This document shows, in pieces, positions 28,686 through 61,411 of a DNA stretch of 64,000 nt. Source of the DNA: Streptomyces leeuwenhoekii (lineage in GTDB: Bacteria > Actinomycetota > Actinomycetes > Streptomycetales > Streptomycetaceae); assembly GCF_001013905.1 (NCBI RefSeq), contig NZ_LN831790.1, positions 3,300,001 to 3,364,000 of the forward strand. The letters are read 5' to 3'. Position numbers and translations under genes: made by a program. A model generated the notes under the pieces. That model ran no database searches. It was not told where the DNA came from and was given only the letters and a program-made list of their open reading frames with translations. Every line of letters begins with the position of its first letter. The first letter of the stretch is position 1.

Positions 28686-28697
28686 CTACGCGCGTAG
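28686..28697. promoter_or_regulatory. Nucleoside-regulon operator upstream of PNP gene
   Basis: CTACGCGCGTAG is a perfect 12-bp palindrome centred about 31 bp before the GTG of the PNP gene. A likely -10, TACCCT (28710-28715), follows, so the site would sit at the -35 region and the transcript would be nearly leaderless. The same motif recurs before five other nucleoside genes or operons. Confidence 0.8.
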
Positions 28698-28722
28698 GCG
28701 AATTCCGGCTACCCTCGTCGGC

Positions 28723-29547
28723 GTGAACGCATCTCTTCTTCCGGACGACATCCAGGGCGACCCGTACGCCGCCGCCGACGCCGCCGCGGCCCGCCTGCGC
28801 GAACTCACGGGCGCCGACACCCACGACGTCGCCCTCGTGATGGGCTCCGGCTGGGCTCCGGCCGTCGACGCCCTCGGCGCCCCCGACGCCGAGTTCCAGG
28901 TCACCGACCTGCCCGGCTTCCCGCCGCCGGCGGTCGCGGGGCACGGAGGCAAGATCCGCTCGTACACGATCGGCGAGAAGCGCGCCCTGGTCTTCCTGGG
29001 CCGCACCCACTACTACGAGGGCCGCGGTGTCGCCGCCGTCGCCCACGGCGTCCGCACCGCCGTGTCGGCCGGCTGCAAGACCGTGGTCCTCACCAACGGC
29101 TGCGGCGGCCTGCGCGAAGGCATGCGCCCCGGCCAGCCGGTCCTGATCAGCGACCACATCAACCTCACGGCCACCTCCCCCATCGTCGGCGCCAACTTCG
29201 TCGACCTCACCGACCTCTACTCCCCGCGCCTGCGCGCCCTGTGCAAGGAGGTCGACCCCACCCTGGAGGAGGGCGTCTACGCCCAGTTCCCCGGCCCGCA
29301 CTACGAGACCCCGGCCGAGATCCGCATGGCCCGCGTCATCGGTGCCGACCTGGTGGGCATGTCGACGGTCCTGGAGGCGATCGCGGCCCGCGAGGCGGGC
29401 GCCGAGGTCCTGGGCATCTCCCTGGTCACCAACCTCGCCGCCGGCATGACGGGCGAGCCCCTCAACCACGAGGAGGTCCTCCAGGCCGGCCGCGACTCCG
29501 CGACCCGCATGGGCTCCCTGCTGGCCCGGGTACTGGTCCGCCTGTAG
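28723..29547 (+). CDS. punA: Purine-nucleoside phosphorylase (trimeric type)
   Basis: This 274-residue enzyme cleaves purine (deoxy)nucleosides with phosphate to base and (deoxy)ribose-1-phosphate. It matches the trimeric PNP family: [16 protein letters not shown] (phosphate loop), [65 protein letters not shown], and [11 protein letters not shown] with the base-binding Asn. GTG 28723 is chosen: it gives the normal N-terminus and leaves the operator CTACGCGCGTAG in the promoter instead of inside the gene. A 580-bp C-rich region follows before the next nucleoside gene. Confidence 0.94.
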
Positions 29548-30128
29548 CACCCCGGACGCCCACGGCGGCAGCGGACGTACCCGGGGCAAACACCCACGAG
29601 GTACGCCCCGCAGCCGCCCACGGCGAGGAGGGACGTGCCCGGAGGCATCCGCACCCCCACGGCCCCGCAGCCGCCCGCGGCGAGAAGGGCCGTGCCGGGG
29701 GGTGTCCGCCCGCAGCGGTTGGCGCGTCGCCCCCGGGCAAGCCGGTGCCCCACCGATTCCGCGCCGTTCCGAGGACGGAAACCCCCCGGCACGGCCCGAC
29801 CCACCTCCGCCGAACAGGCGCTACGCGAACCCCCGCCGTGGGACACAGGCGCCGCAGGCAGATCGCGCACCCCCACCGACCCGCACAGGCGCCGCAGACA
29901 CAAAGACGCACCACACCCCGAACCCGCCAGGTACCGCAGGCACGAGGACACCGCACCACAAACGCGCACCGGCGCCGCAGGCACCCGGGCGCCGCAGGCA
30001 CAAGGACACCGCACCCCGAACCCGCACAGGCGCCGCAGGCACCCCGCCCAAGCGCCGCAAGCACCCGGCGCCTCAGGCACCCGGCGCCACCCCACCCACC
30101 CGCACGACCGACGAGAGGCTGACCCGAC
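29548..30128. repeat. C-rich, G-poor intergenic region with degenerate repeats
   Basis: No gene is credible here. At 29606-29715 a block of about 58 bp starting CCCCGCAGCCGCCC is present twice. From 29840 to 30090 the unit GGCGCCGCAGGCAC recurs at least seven times with variation (GGCGCCGCAGACAC, AGCGCCGCAAGCAC, GGCGCCTCAGGCAC). The plus strand is rich in C and A and poor in T throughout, downstream of the PNP gene on the same strand. This is the composition of a Rho-utilisation region. Confidence 0.6.
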
Positions 30129-31775: not shown

Positions 31776-31802
31776 CCGCCGCACCCCGCCGCTGCCGTTC
31801 TC

Positions 31803-31848
31803 CCCGATGGGAGTGCCCCCGCCCGGAGGCACCCCATCGGGTGATTTT
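31803..31848 (+). terminator. Intrinsic terminator after mutase gene
   Basis: CCCGATGGGAGTGCC (31803-31817) pairs with GGCACCCCATCGGG (31828-31841, one bulge), followed by TGATTTT. This is a rare case here of a hairpin with a T-tract. An in-frame ATG at 31807 lies inside the stem, which argues against that ATG as start of the next gene. Confidence 0.85.
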
Positions 31849-31941
31849 GCTCCGCGGGTTGCCCCTGCTCCCCGGCCGACGCCGCCGCCCGGGCAACGGT
31901 GGACGGAACCCCGCCGCCGAGCCGCCCAGGGAGCCGCCGCC

Positions 31942-33159: not shown

Positions 33160-33531
33160 AACCGACGACCGCGCCCGCCCGGCACCAGCCCGCGCCCACC
33201 AGATCCGCAACCACCGCGCCCGGCCCACGCCCCTACCAGGCCCGCGACCACCAGGCCCGAGCCGCGGCCACCAGGCACCCGACCACCAGGCCCAGCCCGC
33301 GCCCCACCAGGCTCGCTACCACCACGCCCAGCCACCGCCCCTACCAGGCCCGCGACCACCGCGTCCGGCCCGCGACCACCAGCCCCGGCGCCCACCGCAC
33401 CGCACCCACCACTCCCGGCGACGGGCCCGCACCGCTCATCCGCGCCACTCGTGCGCCCCGTCCCCCGCACCGCTCACCCGCCCCGCCTTTGCCCGCTCCC
33501 CGCCCGGCCCCGTCACCCCCGTACCGGCGCC
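33160..33531. repeat. C-rich, T-poor degenerate tandem repeats
   Basis: There is no gene. From 33175 to 33420 variants of CCCGCGACCACCAGGCCC and CCCCTACCAGG recur about every 15-30 bp. The plus strand is about half C and almost lacks T. It follows the membrane glycosyltransferase gene in the sense direction, like the region at 29548-30128, and may be a Rho-dependent termination region. The opposing PH-domain gene ends at 33532. Confidence 0.55.
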
Positions 33532-34221: not shown

Positions 34222-34383
34222 GCTGCCGATTGTGCCCGACGCCTCCGACGGCCCTGCCACCGCGAGCCCCCCGCACCGCCCCGCCCCGGCTCCCGGGCTC
34301 CGCCCCGGGGTTTCACCCCGCCGCGTCCGCGCCTCCCGCGCGCCCCGGCGCCCCCGGTCCCCGCTCCGGGGGCTGTACAGCCG

Positions 34384-34395
34384 CTACGCGCGTAG
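34384..34395. promoter_or_regulatory. Nucleoside-regulon operator at deoC
   Basis: CTACGCGCGTAG, perfect palindrome, continuous with TAGATAT (34393-34399), a good -10 element. The operator therefore overlaps the -10, and the transcript would start 0-10 nt before GTG 34409 or ATG 34415. A bound protein here should block RNA polymerase. Confidence 0.85.
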
Positions 34396-34414
34396 ATATG
34401 CTCGGCTGGTGACC

Positions 34415-35377
34415 ATGTCCACCAATGCACCCACCGCAGATCACGCACTCTCGGACGTCGCCGCGTCCGACAGCACGCTGCGCCGCTTCCTCCACGGGCT
34501 GCCCGGCGTCGACGCGGTCGGCCTGGAGGCGCGCGCCGCCTCCCTGGGCACCCGCTCCATCAAGACCACGGCGAAGGCGTACGCCCTCGACCTCGCGATC
34601 TCGATGGTCGACCTGACGACGCTGGAAGGCGCGGACACCCCGGGCAAGGTCCGGGCGCTCGGCGCCAAGGCGGTCCGCCCCGACCCGACCGACCGCACGG
34701 CCCCGTCCACGGCCGCGGTCTGCGTCTACCCGGACATGGTGGCCACCGCCAAGGAGGCCGTCGCCGGTTCCGGCGTGAAGGTCGCCTCGGTCGCCACCGC
34801 GTTCCCGGCGGGCCGCGCCCCCCTTGCCGTCAAGCTGGCCGACGTGCGCGAGGCCGTGGCGGCGGGCGCCGACGAGATCGACATGGTCATCGACCGCGGC
34901 GCCTTCCTCGCGGGGAACTACCGGAAGGTGTACGACGAGATCGTCGCCGTGAAGGAGGCGTGCGGCACCTCCGCCCGCCTGAAGGTCATCTTCGAGACCG
35001 GCGAGCTGTCGACGTACGACAACATCCGCCGTGCGAGCTGGCTCGGCATGCTGGCGGGCGCCGACTTCATCAAGACCTCCACCGGCAAGGTCGCCGTCAA
35101 CGCGACCCCGGCCAACACCCTGCTGATGCTGGAGGCGGTCCGCGACTTCCGCGCCCAGACCGGCATCCAGGTCGGCGTGAAGCCGGCCGGCGGCATCCGC
35201 ACGGCCAAGGACGCGATCAAGTTCCTGGTCCTGGTCAACGAGACCGCGGGCGAGGACTGGCTCGACAACCACTGGTTCCGTTTCGGCGCCTCCTCGCTGC
35301 TGAACGACCTGTTGATGCAGCGCCAGAAGCTGGCCACCGGCCGCTACTCCGGCCCCGACTACGTGACGGTGGACTGA
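34415..35377 (+). CDS. deoC: Deoxyribose-phosphate aldolase
   Basis: This 320-residue aldolase splits deoxyribose-5-phosphate to acetaldehyde and glyceraldehyde-3-phosphate. It has SMVDLTTLEGADT, AAVCVYPDMV, the proton-relay strand ADEIDMVIDRGAF (Asp156), FIKTSTGK with the Schiff-base Lys220, and VGVKPAGGIRT with the second Lys. It is longer at the N-terminus than E. coli DeoC, as is usual for Streptomyces. GTG 34409 is an alternative start and, with the nearby -10, could be leaderless. It is first gene of an operon with two aldehyde dehydrogenase genes. Confidence 0.95.
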   Translation: MSTNAPTADHALSDVAASDSTLRRFLHGLPGVDAVGLEARAASLGTRSIKTTAKAYALDLAISMVDLTTLEGADTPGKVRALGAKAVRPDPTDRTAPSTAAVCVYPDMVATAKEAVAGSGVKVASVATAFPAGRAPLAVKLADVREAVAAGADEIDMVIDRGAFLAGNYRKVYDEIVAVKEACGTSARLKVIFETGELSTYDNIRRASWLGMLAGADFIKTSTGKVAVNATPANTLLMLEAVRDFRAQTGIQVGVKPAGGIRTAKDAIKFLVLVNETAGEDWLDNHWFRFGASSLLNDLLMQRQKLATGRYSGPDYVTVD

Positions 35378-35383
35378 GACACC

Positions 35384-36835
35384 ATGACCATGGAAAAGCA
35401 GACGCCCGTTTTCGAGTACGCGCCGGCGCCCGAGTCGCGCGCGGTCGTCGACATCGCCCCGTCCTACGGCCTGTTCATCGACGGCGAGTTCGCCGAGGCG
35501 GCCGACGGCAAGGTCTTCAAGACCGTCTCCCCGTCCACCGAGGAGGTCCTCTCCGAGGTCGCCGAGGCCGGTGAGGCGGATGTCGACCGCGCCGTGCAGG
35601 CCGCGCGGAAGGCGTTCGAGACGTGGTCGGCGCTGCCCGGCTCCGAGCGCGCGAAGTACCTCTTCCGCATCGCCCGCATCATCCAGGAGCGCAGCCGCGA
35701 ACTCGCGGTCCTCGAAACCCTGGACAACGGCAAGCCGATCAGGGAGACCCGCGACGCCGACCTGCCCCTGGTCGCCGCGCACTTCTTCTACTACGCGGGC
35801 TGGGCCGACAAGCTGGAGCACGCCGGGTTCGGCGCGCACCCCCGCCCCCTCGGTGTCGCGGGCCAGGTCATCCCCTGGAACTTCCCCCTCCTCATGCTGG
35901 CGTGGAAGATCGCCCCGGCGCTCGCGACCGGCAACACGGTGGTGCTGAAGCCGGCCGAGACGACCCCGCTGTCCGCGCTGTTCTTCGCGGACATCTGCCG
36001 CCAGGCGGGCCTGCCCAAGGGCGTCGTCAACATCGTCACCGGTGACGGCCGCGCGGGTGCCGCGCTGGTCGCCCACCCCGGCGTGGACAAGGTCGCCTTC
36101 ACCGGCTCCACGGCGGTCGGCAAGGAGATCGCCCGCACCGTCGCCGGCACCCGCAAGAAGCTCACCCTGGAGCTGGGCGGCAAGGGCGCCAACATCGTCT
36201 TCGACGACGCGCCGATCGACCAGGCCGTCGAGGGCATCGTGAGCGGCATCTTCTTCAACCAGGGCCAGGTCTGCTGCGCGGGCTCGCGCCTGCTGGTCCA
36301 GGAGTCGATCCACGACGAGTTGCTGGACTCCCTCAAGCGCCGCCTGTCCACCCTGCGCCTGGGCGACCCGCTGGACAAGAACACGGACATCGGCGCGATC
36401 AACTCCGCGGAGCAGCTCGCTCGCATCACCGCCCTCGCCGACCAGGGCGAGGCGGAGGGCGCCGAGCGCTGGTCCCCGGCCTGCGAACTTCCCTCGACCG
36501 GCTACTGGTTCGCCCCGACGCTCTTCACGAACGTCACCCAGGCGCACACCATCGCCCGCGACGAGATCTTCGGCCCGGTGCTGTCGGTCCTCACCTTCCG
36601 CACTCCGGACGAGGCGGTCGCCAAGGCCAACAACACCCCCTACGGCCTGTCGGCGGGCATCTGGACGGAGAAGGGCTCGCGCATCCTGGCGGTCGCGAAC
36701 AAGCTCCGCGCGGGTGTGATCTGGTCCAACACGTTCAACAAGTTCGACCCCACCTCGCCGTTCGGCGGTTACAAGGAGTCGGGCTTCGGCCGCGAGGGCG
36801 GCCGCCACGGCCTGGAGGCGTACCTCGATGTCTGA
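35384..36835 (+). CDS. Aldehyde dehydrogenase (full-length, operon with deoC)
   Basis: This 483-residue NAD(P)-dependent enzyme contains VIPWNFPLLMLAWKIAPALA, the cofactor loop FTGSTAVGKEI, general-base Glu263 (TLELGGKGAN) and the nucleophile region GQVCCAGSR with Cys297/Cys298, so it should be active. It begins 6 bp after deoC, and the most economical role is oxidation of acetaldehyde released by DeoC. It shares an 8-bp overlap with the following short aldehyde dehydrogenase-like gene, implying translational coupling. The acetaldehyde role is inferred from context. Confidence 0.93.
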   Translation: MTMEKQTPVFEYAPAPESRAVVDIAPSYGLFIDGEFAEAADGKVFKTVSPSTEEVLSEVAEAGEADVDRAVQAARKAFETWSALPGSERAKYLFRIARIIQERSRELAVLETLDNGKPIRETRDADLPLVAAHFFYYAGWADKLEHAGFGAHPRPLGVAGQVIPWNFPLLMLAWKIAPALATGNTVVLKPAETTPLSALFFADICRQAGLPKGVVNIVTGDGRAGAALVAHPGVDKVAFTGSTAVGKEIARTVAGTRKKLTLELGGKGANIVFDDAPIDQAVEGIVSGIFFNQGQVCCAGSRLLVQESIHDELLDSLKRRLSTLRLGDPLDKNTDIGAINSAEQLARITALADQGEAEGAERWSPACELPSTGYWFAPTLFTNVTQAHTIARDEIFGPVLSVLTFRTPDEAVAKANNTPYGLSAGIWTEKGSRILAVANKLRAGVIWSNTFNKFDPTSPFGGYKESGFGREGGRHGLEAYLDV

Positions 36836-37718
36836 CGCGCGACTGAGTGTCTTCAAGACCTACAAGCTGTACGTCGGCGGGAAATTCCCGCGTTCGGAGA
36901 GCGGCCGGGTGTACGAGGTGACCGACACGAAGGGCACATGGCTGGCCAACGCCCCCCTTTCCTCCCGCAAGGACGCCCGGGACGCGGTGGTCGCCGCGCG
37001 CAAGGCGTTCGGCGGCTGGTCGGGCGCGACGGCGTACAACCGCGGCCAGATCCTCTACCGCGTCGCGGAGATGCTGGAGGGCCGCCGCGACCAGTTCGTC
37101 CGCGAGGTGGCCGACGCCGAGGGGCTGTCGAAGGCCAAGGCCGCCGAGCAGGTGGACGCGGCGATCGACCGCTGGGTCTGGTACGCGGGCTGGACCGACA
37201 AGATCGCCCAGGTGACCGGCGGCGGCAACCCGGTCGCGGGCCCGTTCTTCAACCTGTCCTCCCCCGAGCCGACGGGTGTGGTGGCGGTCCTGGCCCCGCA
37301 GGAGTCGTCCTTCCTGGGCCTGGTCTCGGTCGTCGCCCCGGTGATCGCCACCGGCAACACGGCGGTGGTGGTCGCGAGCGAGAGGTCCCCGCTCCCGGCC
37401 CTGTCCCTCGCCGAGGTCCTCGCCACCTCCGACCTGCCCGGCGGCGTGGTCAACATCCTGTCCGGCCGCACGGCGGAGATCGCCGCGCCGCTCGCCGCCC
37501 ACCAGGACGTGAACGCCATCGACCTCGCCGGTGCCGGCGAGGAACTGGCCAAGGAACTGGAGATCGCGGCGGCCGACAACCTCAAGCGCGTACTGCGTCC
37601 ACAGCCTGTGGACGACTGGACGGCGACTCCGGGCACCGAGCGCATGACCGCGTTCCTGGAGACGAAGACGGTCTGGCACCCGACCGGCTCGCTGGGCGCG
37701 TCCGGCTCGTCGTACTGA
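36828..37718 (+). CDS. Half-length aldehyde dehydrogenase-like protein lacking the active site
   Basis: This 296-residue protein aligns with the N-terminal half of aldehyde dehydrogenases: KTYKLYVGGKFPRSESGRVY, DAVVAARKAFGGWSGATAYN, VLAPQESSFLGLVSVVAPVI and PGGVVNILSGRTAEIA. The cofactor loop is degenerate (IDLAGAGEELAKE in place of FTGSTxVG), and the protein ends before the general-base Glu and the catalytic Cys. It closes with a distinct tail, KTVWHPTGSLGASGSSY. There is no frameshift; the ending looks designed. It overlaps the full-length enzyme gene by 8 bp. It is probably a non-catalytic partner subunit. Confidence 0.88.
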   Translation: MSDARLSVFKTYKLYVGGKFPRSESGRVYEVTDTKGTWLANAPLSSRKDARDAVVAARKAFGGWSGATAYNRGQILYRVAEMLEGRRDQFVREVADAEGLSKAKAAEQVDAAIDRWVWYAGWTDKIAQVTGGGNPVAGPFFNLSSPEPTGVVAVLAPQESSFLGLVSVVAPVIATGNTAVVVASERSPLPALSLAEVLATSDLPGGVVNILSGRTAEIAAPLAAHQDVNAIDLAGAGEELAKELEIAAADNLKRVLRPQPVDDWTATPGTERMTAFLETKTVWHPTGSLGASGSSY

Positions 37719-45030: not shown

Positions 45031-46149
45031 CTAACGGAAGAGCCATTCGGATTTCAGTTCGGCATATCCGGGCTTGATGACGTCATTGATCATGGCCAGC
45101 CGTTCGTCGAAAGGAATGAACGCTGATTTCATCGCATTGACGGAGAACCACTGCATGTCGTCGAGCGTGTAACCGAATGCTTCGACAAGATGCTCGAATT
45201 CCCGGCTCATGCTGGTGTGGGACATCAGCCGGTTGTCCGTGTTCACCGTCGCGCGGAAGTGCAGGCGGCGCAGCAGCCCGATGGGGTGCTCGGCGTAGGA
45301 GGAGGCGGCCCCCGTCTGGAGGTTGGAGCTGGGGCACAGCTCCAGCGGGATCCGCTTGTCGCGGACGTAGGAGGCGAGCCGCCCCAGCCTGACCGAGCCG
45401 TCCTCGCGCACCTCGATGTCGTCGATGATGCGTACCCCGTGCCCCAGCCGGTCGGCGCCGCACCACTGGAGCGCCTGCCAGATGGACGGCAGGCCGAAGG
45501 CCTCCCCGGCGTGGATGGTGAAGTGGTTGTTCTCCCGCTTCAGGAACTCGAAGGCGTCGAGATGCCGGGTGGGCGGGTGACCGGCCTCGGCACCGGCGAT
45601 GTCGAAGCCGACGACGCCCGCGTCCCGGTAGCGGTTGGCGAGTTCGGCGATCTCCAGGGAGCGGGCCGCGTGCCGCATGGCGGTCAGCAGCGCGCCGACG
45701 CGGATGCGGTGGCCGGCCTCCCGCGCCCGCCGCTCGCCCTCCCTGAAGCCCTCGTCGACGGCTTCGACGACCTCTGCCAGGGTGAGTCCGCCCTCCAGGT
45801 GCTGCTCGGGGGCGTAGCGCACCTCGGCGTAGACGACGCCGTCGCGGGCGAGGTCCTCGGCGCACTCGGCGGCGACGCGGACGAGCGCCTCGCGGGTCTG
45901 CATGACGGCGACGGTGTGGGAGAAGGTCTCCAGGTACCGCTCCAGGGACCCGGAGTCGGCGGCTTCCCGGAACCACAGGCCGAGCTCGCCGGGATCGGTG
46001 TGCGGCAGTTCCGAGTAGCCGGTGGCACGGGCGAGTTCGACGATCGTGGCCGGGCGCAGCCCGCCGTCGAGGTGGTCGTGCAGCAGAACCTTCGGCGCCC
46101 GGCGGATCTGGTCCGGCGTCGGGCTCTTCGCGGTGCTCTGGCTCGTCAT
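45031..46149 (-). CDS. add: Adenosine deaminase
   Basis: This 372-residue zinc enzyme deaminates (deoxy)adenosine to (deoxy)inosine, which PNP then cleaves. It has the HxH pair His24/His26 ([10 protein letters not shown]), [24 protein letters not shown] (zinc His and catalytic Glu), [20 protein letters not shown], and [11 protein letters not shown] with the zinc Asp. All metal ligands are present. ATG 46149 lies 17 bp downstream of the palindrome CTACGCGCGTAG with TACAGT between as likely -10, so repression by the nucleoside-regulon protein is probable. Confidence 0.95.
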
Positions 46150-46165
46150 TTCCGCACTGTAACTC

Positions 46166-46177
46166 CTACGCGCGTAG
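46166..46177. promoter_or_regulatory. Nucleoside-regulon operator at add
   Basis: CTACGCGCGTAG, perfect palindrome, 17 bp upstream of the minus-strand add start, immediately upstream of the probable -10 (TACAGT on the minus strand). It lies in the add / alpha-beta hydrolase intergenic region and could also affect the divergent gene. Confidence 0.8.
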
Positions 46178-46308
46178 AGGGACGCGGGGTTGTTCGCGGT
46201 GGTGTGCCGGTGTACGAATCGTGGTGCGGGGGTGTACGAATGCGTCGATACGCAACGGTGACCGCACGGACGGGTGGCGTACACCCGCACTTCTGAGACT
46301 GTTCTGTC

Positions 46309-52577: not shown

Positions 52578-53861
52578 TCAGGCGATTCGCTCCAGCACCA
52601 CGGGGGAGGCGGTGAAGGCGGTGCCGGCGGGGGCGATGTCGTACGAGCCCGCCACCGCCGCGAGGGCGTACTCGAAGCGCTCGGGCGTGTCCGTGTGGAG
52701 GGTCAGCAGGGGCTGGCCCTCGGTCACCGTGTCGCCGGGCTTGGCGTGCATCTCCACGCCCGCGCCCGCCTGCACCGGGTCCTCCTTGCGGGCGCGGCCG
52801 GCGCCCAGGCGCCAGGCGGCGACGCCGATGTCGTAGGCGTCCAGGCGGGTGAGGACACCGGAGGCCGGAGCCGTGACCACGTGCCGCTCGCGCGCCACCG
52901 GCAGTTCCGCGTCCGGGTCGCCGCCCTGGGCCGCGATCATGCGGCGCCAGACGTCCATGGCGGAGCCGTCCGCCAGCGCCTTCGCCGGGTCGGCGTCCCC
53001 CAGCCCCGCCGCGTCGAGCATCTCGCGGGCCAGGGCGAGGGTCAGCTCGACGACGTCCGCCGGGCCGCCGCCCGCCAGGACCTCGACCGACTCGCGGACC
53101 TCCAGGGCGTTGCCCGCCGTCAGGCCCAGCGGGGTCGACATGTCGGTCAGCAGCGCGACCGTGCGCACGCCGTGGTCGGTGCCGAGGCCGACCATGGTGG
53201 AGGCCAGCTCGCGGGCGTCCTCGACGGTCTTCATGAAGGCGCCGCTGCCCACCTTCACGTCCAGCACCAGCGAGCCGGTGCCCTCGGCGATCTTCTTCGA
53301 CATGATCGAGGAGGCGATGAGCGGGATCGCCTCGACCGTGCCGGTCACGTCGCGCAGGGCGTAGAGCTTCTTGTCGGCGGGGGCCAGACCGTCGCCCGCC
53401 GCGCAGATGACCGCACCGACGCCGTCCAGGACGGACAGCATCTCCTCGTTGGACAGCAGCGCCCGCCAGCCGGGGATCGACTCCAGCTTGTCCAGGGTGC
53501 CGCCGGTGTGGCCGAGGCCCCGGCCCGACAACTGCGGGACGGCGGCGCCGCAGGCCGCGACCAGCGGGGCCAGCGGCAGGGTGATCTTGTCGCCGACGCC
53601 GCCCGTGGAGTGCTTGTCGGCGGTCGGGCGAGACAGCGCGGAGAAGTCCATGCGCTCGCCGGAGGCGATCATCGCCGCGGTCCAGCGGGCGATCTCGCGG
53701 CGGTTCATGCCGTTGAGGAGGATGGCCATCGCGAGGGCCGACATCTGCTCGTCGGCCACCTCCCCGCGGGTGTACGCGTCGATGACCCAGTCGATCTGCG
53801 CGTCGCTGAGCTCGCCGCGGTCCCGCTTGGTGCGGATGACGGAGATGGCGTCCATGGCCAT
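52578..53861 (-). CDS. deoA: Thymidine phosphorylase
   Basis: This 427-residue enzyme cleaves thymidine and deoxyuridine to base and deoxyribose-1-phosphate. It shows the family's N-terminal helical domain (MDAISVIRTKRDRGELSDAQ), the phosphate-binding KHSTGGVGDKITLPLAPLVA, SGRGLGHTGGTLDKLESIPG and SSIMSKKIAEGTGSLVLDVK, and the C-terminal barrel (EMHAKPGDTVTEGQPLLTL). It lies downstream of cdd with about 90 bp between, containing a hairpin. ATG 53855 is an alternative start. Its product enters the mutase-DeoC route encoded elsewhere in the window. Confidence 0.95.
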   Translation of the reverse strand: MAMDAISVIRTKRDRGELSDAQIDWVIDAYTRGEVADEQMSALAMAILLNGMNRREIARWTAAMIASGERMDFSALSRPTADKHSTGGVGDKITLPLAPLVAACGAAVPQLSGRGLGHTGGTLDKLESIPGWRALLSNEEMLSVLDGVGAVICAAGDGLAPADKKLYALRDVTGTVEAIPLIASSIMSKKIAEGTGSLVLDVKVGSGAFMKTVEDARELASTMVGLGTDHGVRTVALLTDMSTPLGLTAGNALEVRESVEVLAGGGPADVVELTLALAREMLDAAGLGDADPAKALADGSAMDVWRRMIAAQGGDPDAELPVARERHVVTAPASGVLTRLDAYDIGVAAWRLGAGRARKEDPVQAGAGVEMHAKPGDTVTEGQPLLTLHTDTPERFEYALAAVAGSYDIAPAGTAFTASPVVLERIA

Positions 53862-53905
53862 GGGTGGTTCCTTCCAGGAGTGCGAAGGGGGAAGGGGAAA
53901 CGCAG

Positions 53906-53941
53906 GGCCCCTCCGAGCCGGCCGGCCGGCTCGGAGGGGCC
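53906..53941. terminator. 36-bp perfect palindrome between cdd and deoA
   Basis: GGCCCCTCCGAGCCGGCC and its exact complement meet without a gap, 10 bp after the cdd stop and 44 bp before deoA. It would form a very stable hairpin and should end or reduce transcription into deoA. Confidence 0.75.
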
Positions 53942-53950
53942 GTGCGGGGG

Positions 53951-54343
53951 TCATCGGGTGAGATGGTCCGGGCCGAACGCCTGCGGGAGCATCTCCGACA
54001 GCGGCAGGATGCCCGCCGGGGTCTCCAGCAGCATCTCCGGGCCGCCGAACTCGTACAGGAGCTGGCGGCAGCGCCCGCAGGGGACGAGGACCTCGCCCTG
54101 GCCGTCCACGCAGACGAAGTGCGTCAGCCGGCCGCCGCCGGTGAGCTGGAGCTGGGAGACCAGGCCGCACTCGGCGCACAGGCCGATGCCGTAGCTGGCG
54201 TTCTCCACATTGCAGCCCGTCACCGTGCGGCCGTCGTCGGCCAGGGCGGCGGCGCCGACCGCGTACCCGGAGTACGGGGCGTACGCCCGGGACATGGCGT
54301 CCCGGGCCGCCCGGCGCAGTGCCGCCCAGTCGGCGCCGGTCAC
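53951..54343 (-). CDS. cdd: Cytidine deaminase
   Basis: This 130-residue enzyme deaminates (deoxy)cytidine to (deoxy)uridine. It is the small tetrameric type with catalytic CNVENASYG, CAECG (Cys56 zinc ligand, Glu58 proton shuttle) and PCGRC (Cys89 and Cys92 zinc ligands). The GTG start at 54343 overlaps the permease stop by 4 bp (GTGA), so it is translated with the nucleoside ABC transporter operon. Its uridine product can be used by uridine kinase or by phosphorylases. Confidence 0.95.
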   Translation of the reverse strand: MTGADWAALRRAARDAMSRAYAPYSGYAVGAAALADDGRTVTGCNVENASYGIGLCAECGLVSQLQLTGGGRLTHFVCVDGQGEVLVPCGRCRQLLYEFGGPEMLLETPAGILPLSEMLPQAFGPDHLTR

Positions 54344-55617
54344 TTGCCCTGCCCCTTCCGGTAGGGCAGCCCGTCCGCCTTCGGCATGCGCAGGCGCTGC
54401 GCGGACAGGGCGAGGACGACGAGGGTGACGACGTACGGCGTGGCGGAGACGACCTGGTTGGGAACCTCGTCGGTGCCCGCGTACCAGGCGAACACCAGGG
54501 CGCCGACGGCCACGGTGACCGCGGCCTTGACGTACGCCTTGCGGACCGCGAACCAGATCGCCCCGGCGAGCAGCAGCAGCGCGCCGAGCAGCAGCAGCGC
54601 GTGGACGTTGGCGGCGCCGCCGCGCAGGTTGAGGCTGTCGGTGTAGCCGAACAGGCCGGCGCCGATGGCGAGGCCGCCCGGCATCCAGTTGCCGAAGATC
54701 ATCGCCGCGAGGCCGATGTAGCCGCGGCCGCTGGTCTGGCCCTCCAGGTAGAAGGGGTTGGCGACGAGGGAGAGGAAGACGCCGCCGAGGCCGGCCAGAC
54801 CGCCGGAGATGATCACGGCCAGGTACTTGTACTTGTAGACGTTGACGCCGAGGGACTCGGCCGCCACCGGGTTCTCGCCGCAGGAGCGCAGGCGCAGGCC
54901 GAACGGGGTGCGCCACAGGATCCACCAGGTGGCGGGGACCAGGGCGACGGCGATCAGGGTCAGCCAGGAGACGTTGGTGACCAGGCCGCCGAGCAGGCCG
55001 GCGATGTCCGAGACGAGGAACCAGCCCTGGCCGTTGAGGTCGCTCAGCACGTCGGACAGCCCGGGCACGGTGAAGTGGCCGAGGGAGTCCACCGCCGGGG
55101 ACTGCTTGGCGGAACCGCCGGGCTCGCCCTCGAAGGCGAGGGGGGCGAGGTAGCGGGTGGCGCCCAGGGCGAGGATGTTGATGGCCACACCGGAGACGAT
55201 GTGGTTGACGTTGAAGGTGACGGTGACGATGGCGTGCAGCAGGCCGCCGAGCGCGCCGCCGATGATGCCGACCAGGACGCCGGTCCACGGGCCCCACTGG
55301 AAACCGGCCCAGGCGCCGAACCAGGTGCCGAGGATCATCATGCCTTCGAGGCCGATGTTGACGACGCCCGCGCGCTCGGCCCACAGGCCGCCGAGACCGG
55401 CCAGGCCGATGGGGACGGCGAGCTGGAGCGCGGTGGACATCTGGCTGACGTTGGTGATGCCGTCGGCGCCGGTGATGAGGCGGACGAGCGAGGTCAGCGC
55501 CAGGGCTCCGGCGATGACCAGCAGCAGGACGGGCAGCGACAGGCGGCGGCCGGTCGGCGCCGCGGGCTGCAGCGTGGGCTGGTTGACGTCGGTCGCCGTG
55601 GTCTGCGGGGTGGTCAT
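54340..55617 (-). CDS. Nucleoside ABC transporter permease (second)
   Basis: This 425-residue integral membrane protein belongs to the branched-chain/ribose-type permease family (BPD_transp_2). Signature segments are LAVPIGLAGLGGLWAERAGV, NIGLEGMMILGTWFGAWAGF, LRSCGENPVAAESLGVNVYK (EAA-like coupling loop) and GRGYIGLAAMIFGNWMPGGL. About ten helices are predicted, with an inserted extracytoplasmic loop (about 155-185). It overlaps the first permease gene by 4 bp and cdd by 4 bp. With the neighbouring ATPase and BMP lipoproteins it forms a purine/pyrimidine nucleoside importer of the NupNOPQ/BmpDEFG type. Confidence 0.93.
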   Translation of the reverse strand: MTTPQTTATDVNQPTLQPAAPTGRRLSLPVLLLVIAGALALTSLVRLITGADGITNVSQMSTALQLAVPIGLAGLGGLWAERAGVVNIGLEGMMILGTWFGAWAGFQWGPWTGVLVGIIGGALGGLLHAIVTVTFNVNHIVSGVAINILALGATRYLAPLAFEGEPGGSAKQSPAVDSLGHFTVPGLSDVLSDLNGQGWFLVSDIAGLLGGLVTNVSWLTLIAVALVPATWWILWRTPFGLRLRSCGENPVAAESLGVNVYKYKYLAVIISGGLAGLGGVFLSLVANPFYLEGQTSGRGYIGLAAMIFGNWMPGGLAIGAGLFGYTDSLNLRGGAANVHALLLLGALLLLAGAIWFAVRKAYVKAAVTVAVGALVFAWYAGTDEVPNQVVSATPYVVTLVVLALSAQRLRMPKADGLPYRKGQGK

Positions 55618-56738
55618 CGGCCAGCCACCTCCTTCGTGGTGTTGTTGTCGGCGCCCAGGACGTGCCCGGCGGCCAGTTCGGCGCCGACGCGGCGCTGCTG
55701 GCGGCGCAGGCCCCACTCGCGGACGGCCTCGTAGGAGACGACGACCGAGAGCACGATCAGGCCCTGCATGATGACCGCGATCTCCTTGTCGTAGCCGTGG
55801 AAGTCCAGCTCCGGCGACGCCTTGTCGAGCCAGGCCCACAGCAGGGCGGCGAAGGCGATGCCGACCGGGCTGTTGCGGCCGAGCAGGGCGATGCCGATGC
55901 CGAGGAAGCCGATGCCGGTGGGGAAGTTGAGGCTGTAGGTGTGGGTGTCGCCGAGCAGGATCGGCAGGCCCGCGAGACCGGCGATGGCCCCGGAGATGAG
56001 CATGGCGGTGAGGACCATGCGCTTGGGGTCGACGCCGCTGGCCGCGGCGGCGGACTCCGAGGCGCCGGAGGCGCGCAGGTCGAAGCCGAAGCGGGTGCGG
56101 TTGAGGACGACCCAGTAGCCGATGCCGAGCAGCACCGCGAGGATCACCAGGCCGTAGACCTCGCCGGCCGCGCCCAGGTCGATGCCGGGGATCCAGCCGG
56201 AGGAGTGCATCTCGCCGGTGGTGTTGTTGTTGCCGATCTTGACGCCGAAGACGTCCGGCAGCCAGAGGTAGCCGATGACGGAGGTGGCGATCGCGTTCAG
56301 CATGATCGTGGCGACGACCTCGCTGACCCCGCGGGTGACCTTCAGGACGCCGGCGATGCCGGACCAGAACGCGCCGGTGAGGGCGGCGGTCAGCAGCAGC
56401 AGCGGGATCTGGAGGAAGGCCGGCAGGGCGGCATGGGCGCCGACGATCGCGGTGAGCATGGCGGCGAGCTGGTACTGGCCGTCGACGCCGATGTTGAACA
56501 GGTTCATCCGGAAGCCGATGGCGACCGCCAGCGCGGCGATGTAGTACATCGACGCCTGGTTGACGATGAGGACCTGGATGTCGGAGAACCCGGCCTGCTC
56601 GAACATGAGGGCGAACGGCTCGACGGGGTTCTTGCCCGAGGCGACCAGCGCGATCGCGCTCAGGACGAAGGCCACGGCGAGCGCGATGACCGGACCGGCC
56701 ACCGCGAGGAGCACGCGCTCCTTGTCGAACTTCTTCAT
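55614..56738 (-). CDS. Nucleoside ABC transporter permease (first)
   Basis: This 374-residue permease has helices starting ERVLLAVAGPVIALAVAFVL and conserved segments FRMNLFNIGVDGQYQLAAML, TRGVSEVVATIMLNAIATSV, LRASGASESAAAASGVDPKR (cytoplasmic coupling loop) and GFLGIGIALLGRNSPVGIAF. It is the partner of the second permease; the two form the membrane pore. It starts one base inside the ATPase stop (TGATG) and ends overlapping the next start (ATGA), so the operon is tightly coupled. Confidence 0.93.
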   Translation of the reverse strand: MKKFDKERVLLAVAGPVIALAVAFVLSAIALVASGKNPVEPFALMFEQAGFSDIQVLIVNQASMYYIAALAVAIGFRMNLFNIGVDGQYQLAAMLTAIVGAHAALPAFLQIPLLLLTAALTGAFWSGIAGVLKVTRGVSEVVATIMLNAIATSVIGYLWLPDVFGVKIGNNNTTGEMHSSGWIPGIDLGAAGEVYGLVILAVLLGIGYWVVLNRTRFGFDLRASGASESAAAASGVDPKRMVLTAMLISGAIAGLAGLPILLGDTHTYSLNFPTGIGFLGIGIALLGRNSPVGIAFAALLWAWLDKASPELDFHGYDKEIAVIMQGLIVLSVVVSYEAVREWGLRRQQRRVGAELAAGHVLGADNNTTKEVAGR

Positions 56739-58342
56739 CAGCGGGCCTCGTCTTCCGTACCCGGGCCGGCGGCCGGGGGCTCTTCGTGTTCGAGGTGGCC
56801 GGTGGCGGCACCGGTCATCGCCGAGCCCAGCTCCTCGGGGGTGATGGAGGCCGGGTCGGCGTCGGCGACCAGCCTGCCGTCGTAGATCACGCGGAGGGTG
56901 TCGGACAGGCCGATCAGCTCGTCCAGGTCGGCGGAGATCAGCAGCACGGCCAGTCCCTCGCGCCGCGCCTCGCGGATGTGGTCCCAGATCGCGGCCTGCG
57001 CGCCGACGTCCACCCCGCGGGTGGGGTGGGCGGCGATCAGGAAGCGCGGCTTGTGGCTCATCTCCCGGCCGACGATCAGCTTCTGCTGATTGCCGCCGGA
57101 CAGGGAGGCGGCGGTGACGTCGATGCCCGGCGTGCGGACGTCGTACGCCGTCACGATCCGCCGGGTGTCCTCCTGGGCCGCCTTCGGGTCCAGCCAGACG
57201 CCCTTGGCGTTGGGCTTCTCGGTGACGTGGCCGAGGATGCGGTTCTCCCAGAGGGGGGCCTCCAGGAGCAGGCCGTGGCGGTGGCGGTCCTCGGGGATGT
57301 AGCCGACGCCCTGTTCGCGGCGCTTGCGGGTGGACCAGGCGGTGATCTCCTCGTCGCCGAGGCGGATCGTGCCGGAGTCGGCGTGGCGCAGTCCGATCAG
57401 CGCGTCCACCAGCTCGGTCTGGCCGTTGCCCTCCACGCCCGCGATGCCCAGCACCTCGCCGGCGTGGATGGTGAAGGTGACGTCGTCGAGCAGGGCCTTG
57501 CCGCCGGGGGCCGTCAGACGCAGCTTCTCGACGGTGAGGACGGGCCGGTCGGTGACGGTGGACTCGGCGGTCTCCGGGGTCGGCAGCTCGCTGCCGACCA
57601 TCATCTCGGCGAGCTGGCGCGGGGTCGTCTCGGAGGGCACGGCCGTGCCGACCGTGGTGCCGCGGCGGATGACGGTGATGTCGTCGGCGACGGAGAGGAC
57701 CTCGCCCAGCTTGTGGGAGATGAAGATGACGGACAGTCCCTCCGACTTCAGCTCGCGCAGGTTGTCGAAGAGGGCGTCCACCTCCTGCGGGACGAGGACC
57801 GCGGTGGGCTCGTCCAGGATCAGCGTGCGGGCGCCGCGGTAGAGGACCTTGAGGATCTCCACGCGCTGGCGGGCGGCGACGCCGAGCTCCTCGACCATGG
57901 CGTCGGGCCGCACGCCGAGGCCGTAGCGGTCGGAGATCTCCGTGATCCTGCGGCGGGCCCTGCCACCGATGCCGTACAGCTTCTCGCTGCCCAGCACCAC
58001 GTTCTCCAGCACCGTCAGGTTGTCGGCGAGCATGAAGTGCTGGTGGACCATGCCGATGCCGCGGGCGATGGCGTCGGCCGGGGACGAGAGGCTCACCTGC
58101 TCGCCGTCGATCGCGATGGTGCCCTCGTCCGGCTTCTGCATGCCGTAGAGGATCTTCATCAGCGTCGACTTGCCGGCGCCGTTCTCGCCGACGAGGGCGT
58201 GGACGGTGCCCTTGCGGACGGTGAGGTGGATGTCGTGGTTGGCCACGACACCGGGGAAACGCTTCGTGATCCCGGCGAGCTCGACGGCGGTCACCTGACC
58301 GTTGACCGCCGCGCCGGCCGGAGGGCTGCTGGACGCGTTGAT
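56738..58342 (-). CDS. Nucleoside ABC transporter ATP-binding protein (double NBD)
   Basis: This RbsA-type ATPase has two nucleotide-binding domains. The first has Walker A GENGAGKST, Q-loop MVHQHFMLADN and Walker B TLILDEPTAVL. The second has a degenerate Walker A (GVEGNGQTE), as usual in nucleoside importers, LSGGNQQKLIVGRE and AAHPTRGVDVGAQ. GTG 58294 gives 518 residues but has no ribosome site. An in-frame ATC at 58342, preceded by AGGAG at 8 nt, would add INASSSPPAGAAVNGQ and is the better-supported start, although non-canonical. The operator CTACGCGCGTAG lies 29-40 bp upstream of it. Confidence 0.9.
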   Translation of the reverse strand: MNASSSPPAGAAVNGQVTAVELAGITKRFPGVVANHDIHLTVRKGTVHALVGENGAGKSTLMKILYGMQKPDEGTIAIDGEQVSLSSPADAIARGIGMVHQHFMLADNLTVLENVVLGSEKLYGIGGRARRRITEISDRYGLGVRPDAMVEELGVAARQRVEILKVLYRGARTLILDEPTAVLVPQEVDALFDNLRELKSEGLSVIFISHKLGEVLSVADDITVIRRGTTVGTAVPSETTPRQLAEMMVGSELPTPETAESTVTDRPVLTVEKLRLTAPGGKALLDDVTFTIHAGEVLGIAGVEGNGQTELVDALIGLRHADSGTIRLGDEEITAWSTRKRREQGVGYIPEDRHRHGLLLEAPLWENRILGHVTEKPNAKGVWLDPKAAQEDTRRIVTAYDVRTPGIDVTAASLSGGNQQKLIVGREMSHKPRFLIAAHPTRGVDVGAQAAIWDHIREARREGLAVLLISADLDELIGLSDTLRVIYDGRLVADADPASITPEELGSAMTGAATGHLEHEEPPAAGPGTEDEAR

Positions 58343-58370
58343 GGCGCACTCTCCTGGGGACGGGGGTCGT

Positions 58371-58382
58371 CTACGCGCGTAG
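58371..58382. promoter_or_regulatory. Nucleoside-regulon operator at ABC transporter operon
   Basis: CTACGCGCGTAG, perfect palindrome, upstream of the ABC ATPase-permease-permease-cdd operon (minus strand) and downstream of the BMP1 terminator. Confidence 0.8.
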
Positions 58383-58421
58383 CGCCCCTACGGCATCGAA
58401 ACGAGCGGCGCACCGAGCAAA

Positions 58422-58454
58422 CGGGGTACGGGGAGACGGCCTCCCCGTACCCCG
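58422..58454 (-). terminator. Terminator after first BMP lipoprotein gene
   Basis: Perfect 14-bp arms CGGGGTACGGGGAG and CTCCCCGTACCCCG with a 5-nt loop lie 50 bp beyond the BMP1 stop, separating it from the ABC operon, which has its own operator. Confidence 0.85.
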
Positions 58455-58503
58455 CTGCGCGGACGCAACCCGGCGGCTGCACGCTGTTCGAGGTGGTGCA
58501 GCG

Positions 58504-59550
58504 TCAGCTGCTCTTGACCTTGATCTCGCCGCTGATGATCTTCTCCTTGGCCGTCTTGATGGCTTCCTGGAGCTCGGCGTTCTGCGCGAACTTCGGGTTG
58601 GAGTCCGACAGGCTCACCTCGCCGCTCTTCAGATCGCCCCTGACGATACCGGTCTGCGGCTTGCCGTCCTTCACGGACTTCGCGAGGTTGTACACCGCCT
58701 TGGCGACGTCCTTCATCGCCGAGGTGAGGATGGAGTCCTTGTACTTCGCGAGGGCTTCCTGCTTGTACTGGTCGGAGTCGACGCCGATCGCCCAGACCTT
58801 GTTGGCGGCGGCAGCCTCGATCACGCCCTGACCGGACAGACCGGCGGCCGCGTAGACCACGTCGGCCTTCTTCTCGATCTGGCCCTCGGCGGCGGTCTTG
58901 CCCTTGTCGGGGCTGGAGAAGCCGCCCTCCTCGGCCGTCTGCGTCAGGTACTGGGAGAGGACCTTGACCTTGGGGTCGGTGTCCTTCACGCCCTGCTCGA
59001 AGCCGGCCTGGAACTTGTGGATCAGCGGGACGTCCACGCCGCCCACGAAGCCGACGACCTTGTTCTTGGTCGACTTGGCGGCGGCGACACCGGCCAGGTA
59101 CGACGCCTCCTCCTCGGAGAAGACCAGGTCGGCCACGTTGTCGGCCTTGACCGTGGAGTCGTCCACGATGCCGAAGGTCGTCTTCGGGTACTTCTCCGCG
59201 GCGGCCTTCATGGCGGTGGCGTACGCGTAGCCGACACCGACGACCGGGTTGTAGCCCTGCTTGGCCAGGGACTCCAGGCGCTGCTGCTTGTCCGCGTCGG
59301 TCTCGCCCTCGGTGGGCTCGATGTCGGCGGTGGTGTAGTCGAACTCCTTCTTCGCCTGCTCGAGGCCCGCGTAGGCGGCGTCGTTGAAGGACTGGTCACC
59401 CTTGCCGCCGACGTCGTAGGCGATGGCGAGGCCCTTGTCGCCCTTCGACTCCGACGACCCGGAGGTCGAGGTACCGCCGCAGGCGGAGAGCGCGAGGGCC
59501 AGGGAGGCGGTCGCTGCGCCTGCGACCGTGATCCGGGAAATCCGGCGCAT
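58504..59550 (-). CDS. BMP family nucleoside-binding lipoprotein (copy 1)
   Basis: This 348-residue substrate-binding lipoprotein has a signal MRRISRITVAGAATASLALA and lipobox LSAC (Cys24). The Bmp/PnrA domain is complete: LAIAYDVGGKGDQSFNDAAY, the nucleoside-contact region KQGYNPVVGVGYAYATA, FVGGVDVPLIHKFQAGFEQG, AAAGLSGQGVIEAAAAN and VWAIGVDSDQYKQEAL. It should deliver nucleosides to the ABC transporter encoded just downstream. It has its own operator-promoter and terminator. It is a close paralogue of the copy at 60292. Confidence 0.94.
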   Translation of the reverse strand: MRRISRITVAGAATASLALALSACGGTSTSGSSESKGDKGLAIAYDVGGKGDQSFNDAAYAGLEQAKKEFDYTTADIEPTEGETDADKQQRLESLAKQGYNPVVGVGYAYATAMKAAAEKYPKTTFGIVDDSTVKADNVADLVFSEEEASYLAGVAAAKSTKNKVVGFVGGVDVPLIHKFQAGFEQGVKDTDPKVKVLSQYLTQTAEEGGFSSPDKGKTAAEGQIEKKADVVYAAAGLSGQGVIEAAAANKVWAIGVDSDQYKQEALAKYKDSILTSAMKDVAKAVYNLAKSVKDGKPQTGIVRGDLKSGEVSLSDSNPKFAQNAELQEAIKTAKEKIISGEIKVKSS

Positions 59551-59610
59551 GTGGTGCTCCTGTCGTGCTAGCGCCGGACGGTTCGGCATCGGCGCTGACT
59601 CCGCCGCACA

Positions 59611-59624
59611 TTAACGCGCGTAGA
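59611..59624. promoter_or_regulatory. Nucleoside-regulon operator at BMP1
   Basis: TTAACGCGCGTAGA (minus strand TCTACGCGCGTTAA) is a variant of the palindrome with an altered half-site that creates a TAATGT -10 on the minus strand (59608-59613). A 20-nt block, 59605-59624, is identical to that upstream of BMP2. Confidence 0.75.
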
Positions 59625-60291
59625 CCTGCCTGAAAACCCCTTCTGTCCACCTTGTTATCCGCCCGTGGCCAACCGCCCGCACGCGGCACGCCGGGCGTTG
59701 CCGACCGCAAAGGAGGGGTGGCGGGGGGTGACCGGGGGGACGGGTGGCCACCGGACGGGCACGGGGGGCTACCGCCCGTTTCGTCGGCGTTCAGCCGGTT
59801 TCATCCGTTCGGCCGGTACGGCGGGGAGTCGCGGGCGGGCGGACGGGCGGGGGCGACCGGCGGAAGGGGTCCGGGGCAGGCGGGTCGCACGGCGGCTGGG
59901 CGGGGCCGGGCGGCGGGTCCGTACGGGGCCGGAGGCCGAGACCGGGCTGGAGATCGTACGGGCCGGATCCGGCGGGCGGGGCGGGCGGGCCGGGGTCCGG
60001 AGGGACGACGCCGGGGATGGCGGGCGGACCCGGAGGCCCGGAGGGACGACGCCGGGAGTGGTGGGCGGACCCGGAGGCCCGGAAGTACGCCGGGGCGGGA
60101 CCGGCGGGCAGAGACCCGCAGGCCCGGCCCGGTGCCGAACCCGGAAGGCCCCGACCGGGAAGGCCCCGGCCCGAAGCCGGCCGGCCGGCGAGGCCGGGTG
60201 GCCGGGGGATCCAGGAGCCGGGCCGGTCCGACCGGCGGGGCCCCGGTGTCATCGGCTCGGTGGCCCCGCCGTGGTGGTCGTGCCGTGAGGG
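59625..60291. repeat. G-rich intergenic region with 41-bp tandem duplication
   Basis: The 740 bp between the two BMP genes hold no credible gene; open frames here are Gly/Arg low complexity. A 41-bp unit starting CGGAGGGACGACGCCGGG is present twice in tandem (59998-60038 and 60039-60079, three mismatches) with a third partial unit. The plus strand is dominated by G-runs, so the transcript from BMP2 (minus strand) is C-rich, as for other 3' regions in this window. Confidence 0.7.
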
Positions 60292-61344
60292 TTATTCGGT
60301 CCGGACCTTGATCGATCCGTCGATGATGCCGGACTTCGCCTTCGCGACGGCGTCCTTCAGGCCCTCGATGGTGGCGAACTGCGGGTTGGTCTCGGTCAGG
60401 CCGACGCCGTCGACCTTCAGGTCGAAGGTCTGGGTGCCGGTGAGCGGCTTGCCGTCCTCCACGGACTTCGCCAGGGCGTACACGGAGCCGCCGACGTCCT
60501 TGGTCGCCGAGGTCAGGATGCGGTCCTTGTACTTGGCGAGGGCCTCCTGCTTGTACTGGTCGGAGTCGACGCCGATCGCCCAGACCCCGGCCTTGGCGGC
60601 GGCCTCGATGACGCCCTGCCCGGACAGGCCGGCGGCGTGGTACACGACGTCGGCCTTCTTCTCGATCTGGCCCTCGGCGGCGGCCCGGCCCTTGTCCGGG
60701 CTGGAGAAGCCGCCCTCCTCGGCGGTCTGCGTCAGGTACTGGGAGACGACCTTCACCTTGGGGTCGGTCTCCTTCACGCCCTGCTCGAAGCCGGCCTCGA
60801 ACTTGTGGATGAGCGGCACGTCCACACCGCCCACGAAGCCGACCGTCTTCGTTTTGGTGGCCTTCGCGGCGGCGACACCGGCGAGGTAGGACGCCTGTTC
60901 CTCGGCGAAGACGAGGGAGGCGACGTTCTTGCCCTCGACCACGGAGTCGACGATGCCGAAGGTGGTCTTCGGGTACTTGGCGGCCACGGCCTTCATCGCC
61001 GGGCCGTAGGCGAATCCGACGCCGATGACGGGGTTGTAGCCCTGGCGTGCCAGCGACGCCAGGCGCTGCTCCTTGTCGGCGTCGGTCTCGCCCTCGGTGG
61101 GCTCGATGTCGGCGGTGGCGTAGCCGAACTCCTTCTTCGCCTGCTCGAGGCCGGCGTAGGCGGCGTCGTTGAAGGACTGGTCGCCCCGGCCGCCGATGTC
61201 GTAGGCGATGGCGAGACCCTTGCCACCCTTCGTGCCGCTGTCGACGCTGTCCTTCTCGCTGCTCGTACCGCCGCAGGCGGTGGCGGCGAGGGCGAGCGAC
61301 GCGACCCCCACCGCGGCGCGGCTCAGTCTCGATATCCGGCGCAT
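60292..61344 (-). CDS. BMP family nucleoside-binding lipoprotein (copy 2)
   Basis: This 350-residue paralogue of the protein at 58504 has a signal MRRISRLSRAAVGVASLALA and lipobox ATAC (Cys24), with the same Bmp/PnrA blocks: LAIAYDIGGRGDQSFNDAAY, RQGYNPVIGVGFAYGPAM, FVGGVDVPLIHKFEAGFEQG and WAIGVDSDQYKQEALAKYKD. By eye about three quarters of residues match copy 1. The differences are concentrated in the signal peptide and the C-terminal 60 residues. It stops with TAA and has its own operator. It may widen the nucleoside range of the shared transporter. Confidence 0.93.
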   Translation of the reverse strand: MRRISRLSRAAVGVASLALAATACGGTSSEKDSVDSGTKGGKGLAIAYDIGGRGDQSFNDAAYAGLEQAKKEFGYATADIEPTEGETDADKEQRLASLARQGYNPVIGVGFAYGPAMKAVAAKYPKTTFGIVDSVVEGKNVASLVFAEEQASYLAGVAAAKATKTKTVGFVGGVDVPLIHKFEAGFEQGVKETDPKVKVVSQYLTQTAEEGGFSSPDKGRAAAEGQIEKKADVVYHAAGLSGQGVIEAAAKAGVWAIGVDSDQYKQEALAKYKDRILTSATKDVGGSVYALAKSVEDGKPLTGTQTFDLKVDGVGLTETNPQFATIEGLKDAVAKAKSGIIDGSIKVRTE

Positions 61345-61397
61345 CTGAAGTTCCCCATTCTCCAAAACCCCGCAGCGGGTGCTCGGTTCGGCGCACA

Positions 61398-61411
61398 TTA
61401 ACGCGCGTAGA
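61398..61411. promoter_or_regulatory. Nucleoside-regulon operator at BMP2
   Basis: TTAACGCGCGTAGA is identical to the BMP1 site, within the shared 20-nt block (61392-61411). It lies 54 bp upstream of the BMP2 start, overlapping the probable promoter on the minus strand. Confidence 0.75.

Follow-up and report, generated by a model that had tools for sequence, protein, structure and literature searches.

The 64,000-nucleotide stretch of Streptomyces leeuwenhoekii DNA analysed here (hereafter the window) carries genes for the uptake and breakdown of nucleosides: a purine-nucleoside phosphorylase (PNP), a deoxyribose-phosphate aldolase (deoC) followed by two aldehyde dehydrogenases, an adenosine deaminase (add), an ATP-binding cassette (ABC) importer grouped with a cytidine deaminase (cdd) and a thymidine phosphorylase (deoA), and two BMP-type substrate-binding proteins (Table 1). 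Promoters across this set contain a short palindrome, CTACGCGCGTAG as a 12-mer and TCTACGCGCGTAGA in its 14-bp form (the box), which we propose to be the putative operator of a single transcription factor of the Streptomycetaceae.

Six sites at the promoters of nucleoside genes

A scan of the window places perfect copies of the 12-mer at 28686, 34384, 46166 and 58371, while the two BMP genes are preceded by TAACGCGCGTAG at 59612 and 61399, that is, by TTAACGCGCGTAGA at 59611 and 61398. A preliminary description of this DNA had listed these six positions, all of which were found again, and had reported no copy elsewhere in the 64 kb, which agrees with the six sites being the complete set of window matches at up to two mismatches. 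It had also placed the copies within about 60 bp upstream of nucleoside genes; the distances from site to start codon are 24 bp for PNP, 12 for deoC, 15 for add, 60 for BMP1 and 53 for BMP2, and the site of the ABC ATPase gene lies 27 bp from the start if translation begins at an in-frame ATC behind AGGAG, or 75 bp if it begins at the GTG at 58294.

The chance expectation for perfect 12-mers in the window is 0.00, and none of 100 dinucleotide shuffles reached the four copies observed. The count at up to two mismatches is ordinary by itself (six observed versus 4.46 expected, with six or more in 34 of 100 shuffles), and what is unusual about the sites is their perfection, placement and conservation, not their number at this threshold. 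When the window was scanned with a weight matrix trained on 21 promoter sites that all lie outside it, the six sites took ranks 1 to 6 (19.6-22.6 bits) and the seventh match scored 8.5, compared with a mean maximum of 11.7 and a highest value of 19.0 in 60 first-order simulations. Four of the six share their letters with the training list, which contains identical sites from orthologous promoters, so the matrix is a fair test for the two BMP sites only.

Table 1. Genes, putative operators and promoter elements discussed in the text. Coordinates refer to the window, except in the last row, which gives positions in the genome.
Feature	Position	Strand	Basis or remark
Putative operator TCTACGCGCGTAGG, PNP promoter	28685..28698	.	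motif scan
-10-like TACCCT, PNP	28710..28715	+	7 nt ahead of GTG start; by motif
PNP	28723..29547	+	start GTG 28723 in frame of the listed open reading frame (ORF); NCBIfam TIGR01698, 340 bits (cut-off 302.6)
Putative operator GCTACGCGCGTAGA, deoC promoter	34383..34396	.	motif scan
-10-like TATGCT, deoC	34397..34402	+	abuts operator; GTG start 6 nt on
deoC	34409..35377	+	TIGR00126, 181 bits (cut-off 117.3)
Aldehyde dehydrogenase 1, downstream of deoC	35384..36835	+	PF00171
Aldehyde dehydrogenase 2, shorter, downstream of deoC	36828..37718	+	PF00171, profile positions 6-232 of 461
add	45031..46149	-	NF006847, 642 bits (cut-off 412)
-10-like TACAGT, add	46156..46161	-	6 nt ahead of ATG 46149; by motif
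Putative operator, CCTACGCGCGTAGA on + strand, add promoter	46165..46178	.	motif scan
deoA	52578..53861	-	NF004490, 647 bits; Pfam
cdd	53951..54343	-	start overlaps permease stop; PF00383, 49.9 bits (cut-off 25)
Importer permease gene 2	54340..55617	-	reading frame; role suggested by layout elsewhere
Importer permease gene 1	55614..56738	-	reading frame, start overlaps ATPase stop; role suggested by layout elsewhere
ABC importer ATPase	56738..58342	-	listed ORF from GTG 58294; in-frame ATC at 58342 after AGGAG
Putative operator TCTACGCGCGTAGC, promoter of ABC-cdd-deoA genes	58370..58383	.	motif scan and matrix
BMP1, BMP-type substrate-binding protein	58504..59550	-	NF047927, 94 bits, under its cut-off of 400
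Putative operator TTAACGCGCGTAGA, BMP1 promoter	59611..59624	.	motif scan
BMP2, BMP-type substrate-binding protein	60292..61344	-	NF047927, 85 bits, under its cut-off of 400
Putative operator TTAACGCGCGTAGA, BMP2 promoter	61398..61411	.	motif scan
Seven candidate sites of the genome	2529970, 2546571 (NCS1 permease), 2677863, 2981730, 4303066, 4452588, 6018326

Conservation within the Streptomycetaceae

The 8.12-Mb genome contains four perfect 12-mers, every one of them inside the window, and no perfect 14-mer. A genome-wide search with up to two mismatches, which the preliminary description had suggested, returned 20 sites for the 14-mer against four for a reversed control pattern, and 11 of the 20 lie at promoters of nucleoside, nucleobase or nucleotide genes; the same comparison gave 15 versus 3 in a second genome (G231) and 18 versus 2 in a third (G265). 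All 61 genomes of the genus, this one included, contain the perfect 12-mer, at 2-6 copies each against 0-3 for the control; within the family as a whole it is missing from a single genome of 150, and 16 of the 17 genera have it. The sole family genome that lacks a perfect copy (G263) retains ACTACGCGAGTAGA at deoC, and across the family the box tolerates scattered substitutions.

Outside the family the box fades to background. A sample of 197 genomes of the class was searched with the 14-mer at one mismatch, a setting that perfect 12-mers with both flanks changed escape; all 16 genomes of the genus (again including this one) hold 4-11 matches, with 0-3 for the control, and 13 of the 181 other genomes hold one or two, which is the chance level. 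Conservation is also seen gene by gene. Among 13 family loci retrieved around the DeoR-type gene of the window (see below), 12 hold PNP and 10 hold deoC, and the site is found at PNP in 11 of these 12 and at deoC in all 10, besides S. leeuwenhoekii and G231, which have it at both genes. A scan with the deoC promoter retrieved at least 120 stretches, and the 80 titles listed all name Streptomyces, except for L192, L193, L201 and L208 (Kitasatospora, Streptacidiphilus and '[Kitasatospora]'). In another genome (G146) two boxes are perfect; the 60 kb retrieved there contain a single match to the window proteins, an add-like one with 35% identity, situated between the loci of the two boxes.

It might be argued that the boxes are chance repeats or an element without regulatory function, as the ordinary window count at two mismatches and two other genome matches within coding sequence would allow. 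However, the sites are promoter-bound, stand at orthologous genes and recur family-wide, which makes such an origin hardly credible.

In the perfect 12-mers among the rows listed, one flank is T/A and the other is a different base. The odd flanking base is mostly constant for a given gene, for example G in 106 of 120 deoC promoters.

A proposed regulon wider than nucleoside catabolism

The 20 sites of the S. leeuwenhoekii genome comprise the six in the window, five at promoters whose orthologues also have the box, two in coding sequence and seven further candidates (Table 1). At loci chosen for having a site, so that the fractions are not rates, the box was found at the promoters of purS-purQ (6/6 loci compared), a carbon-nitrogen (CN) hydrolase (8/8), a xanthine/uracil permease (4/4), a 5'-nucleotidase (3/3) and an EEP-family enzyme (3/3; its start codon is clear in G231 and G265 and not in S. 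leeuwenhoekii). The CN hydrolase gene heads an aminotransferase-amidohydrolase operon that looks like one for reductive pyrimidine catabolism. In addition, a HAD hydrolase gene in another genome (G159) has the box in a leaderless-looking promoter. The GmrSD_C gene and L017/L277 were set aside as regulon members, as the box lies within coding sequence in both.

Several genomes therefore have one motif in front of genes that are orthologous and linked in function, and the set looks like a family-wide nucleoside, nucleobase and nucleotide regulon. The preliminary description had proposed a shared operator and one repressor for nucleoside uptake, deamination, phosphorolysis and deoxyribose breakdown; the shared operator and single regulator are well supported by the comparisons above, whereas the label 'nucleoside catabolism' proved too narrow and the assignment of a repressor derives from promoter layout.

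Expression data from another species provide independent, indirect support for the proposed regulon, in that PNP, deoC and add rise jointly. In CelA-producing S. lividans, PNP (SCO4917) goes from 5 to 64, deoC (SCO4914) from 7 to 69 and add (SCO4901) from 11 to 49 transcripts per million (PMC6302529), the SCO genes having been equated with window genes by their names and order. WblC was also detected at the SCO4914 promoter by chromatin immunoprecipitation and quantitative PCR (PMC7157823), and therefore deoC may have a second input.

Some features of the importer genes were also noted. Orthologues of the ATPase outside the family are 63-75% identical and adjoin BMP genes, mostly together with deoA; deoA has a site of its own in G231 and none in S. 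leeuwenhoekii. In the region 58340-58356, and in G231 (L051), AGGAG is followed after 8 nt by ATCAACGCGTCCAG in frame. This layout is found in both genomes compared, the in-frame GTG of S. leeuwenhoekii lies later than the ATC, and the ATPase gene seems to begin with ATC, a rare start codon.

Promoter architecture and probable mode of action

At the three window promoters where a -10-like element was assigned, the gap between putative operator and -10 is 0 bp for deoC, 3 bp for add and 11 bp for PNP, and these elements stand so close to the start codons that the PNP, deoC and add transcripts are probably leaderless. A GTG lies 6 nt after TATGCT in 107 of 120 deoC-type promoters retrieved (from at least 120 such stretches), and leaderless messages are common in S. 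coelicolor, with 264 mRNAs in this class (PMC4681348). This apparent layout puts the box upstream of the transcript, and the box would therefore act as DNA; no Rfam family was detected in the window at gathering scores. Action as DNA and a variable distance to the -10 both argue for a promoter-seated repressor, and spacings of 0, 3 and 11 bp suit occlusion better than an activator that requires a fixed geometry.

The converse proposal, that the box is an activator site or an extended promoter element read by a special σ factor, draws on purS, where the site is near position -35, and on the xanthine permease, where it is further upstream. The site is palindromic, though, and its gap to the likely -10 varies among genes, since distances of ~13 and ~23 bp are added to those of 0, 3 and 11 bp (all -10s assigned by eye), and we consider this proposal improbable. 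Directly ahead of the full box, the purS promoter (L008 and its relatives) also has extra CGTAG and CTAC half-sites, which may form a second operator.

We therefore favour the view, with a probability of roughly 75%, that a single dimeric transcription factor used throughout the Streptomycetaceae has CTACGCGCGTAG/TCTACGCGCGTAGA as its operator; the factor would most likely be encoded elsewhere and, as we infer from promoter layout, be a repressor. Bound to the box, the factor would obstruct RNA polymerase over the -10 to -35 region; it would be released when a purine or pyrimidine nucleoside, a nucleobase or a derived metabolite builds up. The set under its control would include nucleoside import, PNP, deoC, add, cdd/deoA, nucleobase permease, purS-purQ, pyrimidine breakdown, the 5'-nucleotidase and the EEP-family enzyme.

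Several observations count against this view. None of the candidate regulators considered below gained support. Seven of the 20 sites in the genome are candidates and two are in coding sequence, G263 has no box at PNP, and in G147 the box lies ~870 bp upstream of the EEP gene, an ill-fitting position. At the xanthine permease, where ~23 bp seem to separate the site from the likely -10 downstream of it, an activator is equally likely. Finally, the S. lividans expression table cited above contains 30 genes, mostly unrelated, and the numbers 4884 and 4888 are absent from the main text of that paper (PMC6302529).

A further proposal, to which we would give somewhat less than even odds, is that a single, so far unrecognised regulator evolved specifically in the Streptomycetaceae and coordinates extracellular nucleotide breakdown, uptake, phosphorolysis, purine synthesis and pyrimidine breakdown. 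If so, such a regulator would fit a lifestyle of recycling lysed mycelium. It could also connect the recycling of nutrients with development and with the making of antibiotics, because purine balance in Streptomyces feeds ppGpp and c-di-GMP signalling (PMC6627660). The strongly conserved 14-bp operator is a ready bait for the regulator.

Candidate regulators

The DeoR/GlpR-type protein encoded at 25417-26376 is the nearest candidate, and would bind the box and sense a phosphorylated ribose or deoxyribose. It belongs to the right family (PF08220 and PF00455), its gene is on the same retrieved stretch as PNP in 12 of the 12 family loci holding PNP, and its DNA-binding region is nearly invariant within the family, as is the box. 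Its own promoter lacks the box, however, both in S. leeuwenhoekii and G231 by eye and in 13 of 13 family loci, where the best match within 250 bp upstream has 5-7 mismatches; this accords with the preliminary description, in which the regulator was not evident and the DeoR-type promoter was without the site. Moreover, three genomes of another family (f17) encode orthologues with 67-69% identity and an almost identical recognition helix; at one mismatch the 14-mer is absent from two of these genomes, G113 and G145, and present once in the third, G189, and box and DeoR protein do not consistently co-occur across genomes. Orthologues outside the Streptomycetaceae, in f17 and f28, share a different box, GATCNNAWTCGNTCA, which by eye is exact at three of five promoters, has one mismatch at another and is absent from the fifth. 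Within the Streptomycetaceae, however, none of the 13 deoR genes compared is preceded by this sequence (best match 3-5 mismatches), which makes a family-specific operator of the DeoR-type protein conceivable. Co-expression places SCO4920 with σ factors (PMC3224704), which we count against the DeoR-type protein. On balance, this nearby protein is unlikely to be the regulator, judging from these sequence comparisons.

The promoters with GATCNNAWTCGNTCA belong to the orthologues at L102-L105, and the one without it to L106; outside the Streptomycetaceae, GATCNNAWTCGNTCA may serve this DeoR subfamily as its operator. At L102 (f17) the deoR orthologue is divergent from a transporter-like operon. 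In S. leeuwenhoekii (26377-26516, minus strand) and in orthologues, the deoR gene is leaderless-looking, and a block around GCTGAAAGCAGACGGTC is conserved upstream of it.

The ppGpp-responsive TetR-family protein XdhR, a known purine factor, might control the box genes too; in S. coelicolor it represses xdhABC and couples the salvage of purines with ppGpp (PMC6627660). We regard this as very improbable, given that the xdh locus of S. leeuwenhoekii, with a divergent TetR gene taken to be xdhR from its position, has no box-like site between the genes at up to four mismatches. That intergenic region (L120:6200-6480) contains CGGACA...TGTCCG-type repeats, a possible XdhR operator.

Several other candidates likewise gained no support. 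An XRE protein near the pyrimidine operon (P0001) has 80% identical copies in two f17 genomes (G076 and G145) where the 14-mer has no match at one mismatch; its own stretch contains a single box, the CN-hydrolase site. A GntR protein adjoining a box in G231 (P0002) is present in 2 of 32 genomes searched, and near the MarR gene at L010 the same one-base variant of the box in G056 and G231 belongs to the CN hydrolase. Another MarR gene adjoins the xanthine permease; SAV4189, a Streptomyces MarR protein perhaps unrelated to it, has another motif (PMC6036246). A PurR of the PuR_N type was rejected with no PuR_N protein in the S. leeuwenhoekii genome and matches in 3 of 14 control genomes.

Nucleoside clusters outside the family were surveyed in 18 regions, the best 18 of 29 genomes with a match, with gene starts set crudely. 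Among their 61 promoters no box was present (best match 3-6 mismatches), and 27 predicted proteins read by eye included no linked regulator common to the families; the linked proteins were AsnC-like by dehydrogenase-like genes (f17), TetR-like (f18) and MarR-like (f26).

LacI-type operators usually have a central CG and, three bases away from it, a conserved A. The box has the central CG and lacks the A; the genome contains 27 matches to the LacI helix-turn-helix, 26 of them over the cut-off.

Comparison with known systems

A full-text literature search with the motif string and its spelled variants found no relevant paper, and the full text searched yielded no account of an operator for nucleoside and purine salvage in Streptomyces (subscription papers and RegPrecise fall outside this scope).

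In E. coli, nucleoside catabolism is controlled by the repressors DeoR and CytR, whose operators are palindromes at PNP, deoC, deoA, cdd and genes for nucleoside transport. The system described here is similar in having putative palindromic operators on genes of nucleoside catabolism and transport. It differs in its operator sequence, in a linked DeoR-type gene that is without the box, and in a set that adds purS-purQ, pyrimidine breakdown and nucleotide-degrading enzymes. In Bacillus and Lactococcus, the PuR_N-family protein PurR, which binds phosphoribosyl pyrophosphate, joins purine synthesis with salvage and transport; the regulon proposed here would do likewise, unlike PurR without a PuR_N protein in the genome.

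Within the genus, the purine-salvage regulator XdhR of S. coelicolor has xdhABC as its target (PMC6627660), and the repeat at xdh in S. leeuwenhoekii differs from the box. NupR of Bacillus thuringiensis is likewise a single factor, named for control of nucleoside transport, but belongs to the GntR/HutC family and to a Firmicute (PMC9430930). The kind of system is familiar, and the operator is new as far as the literature was searched.

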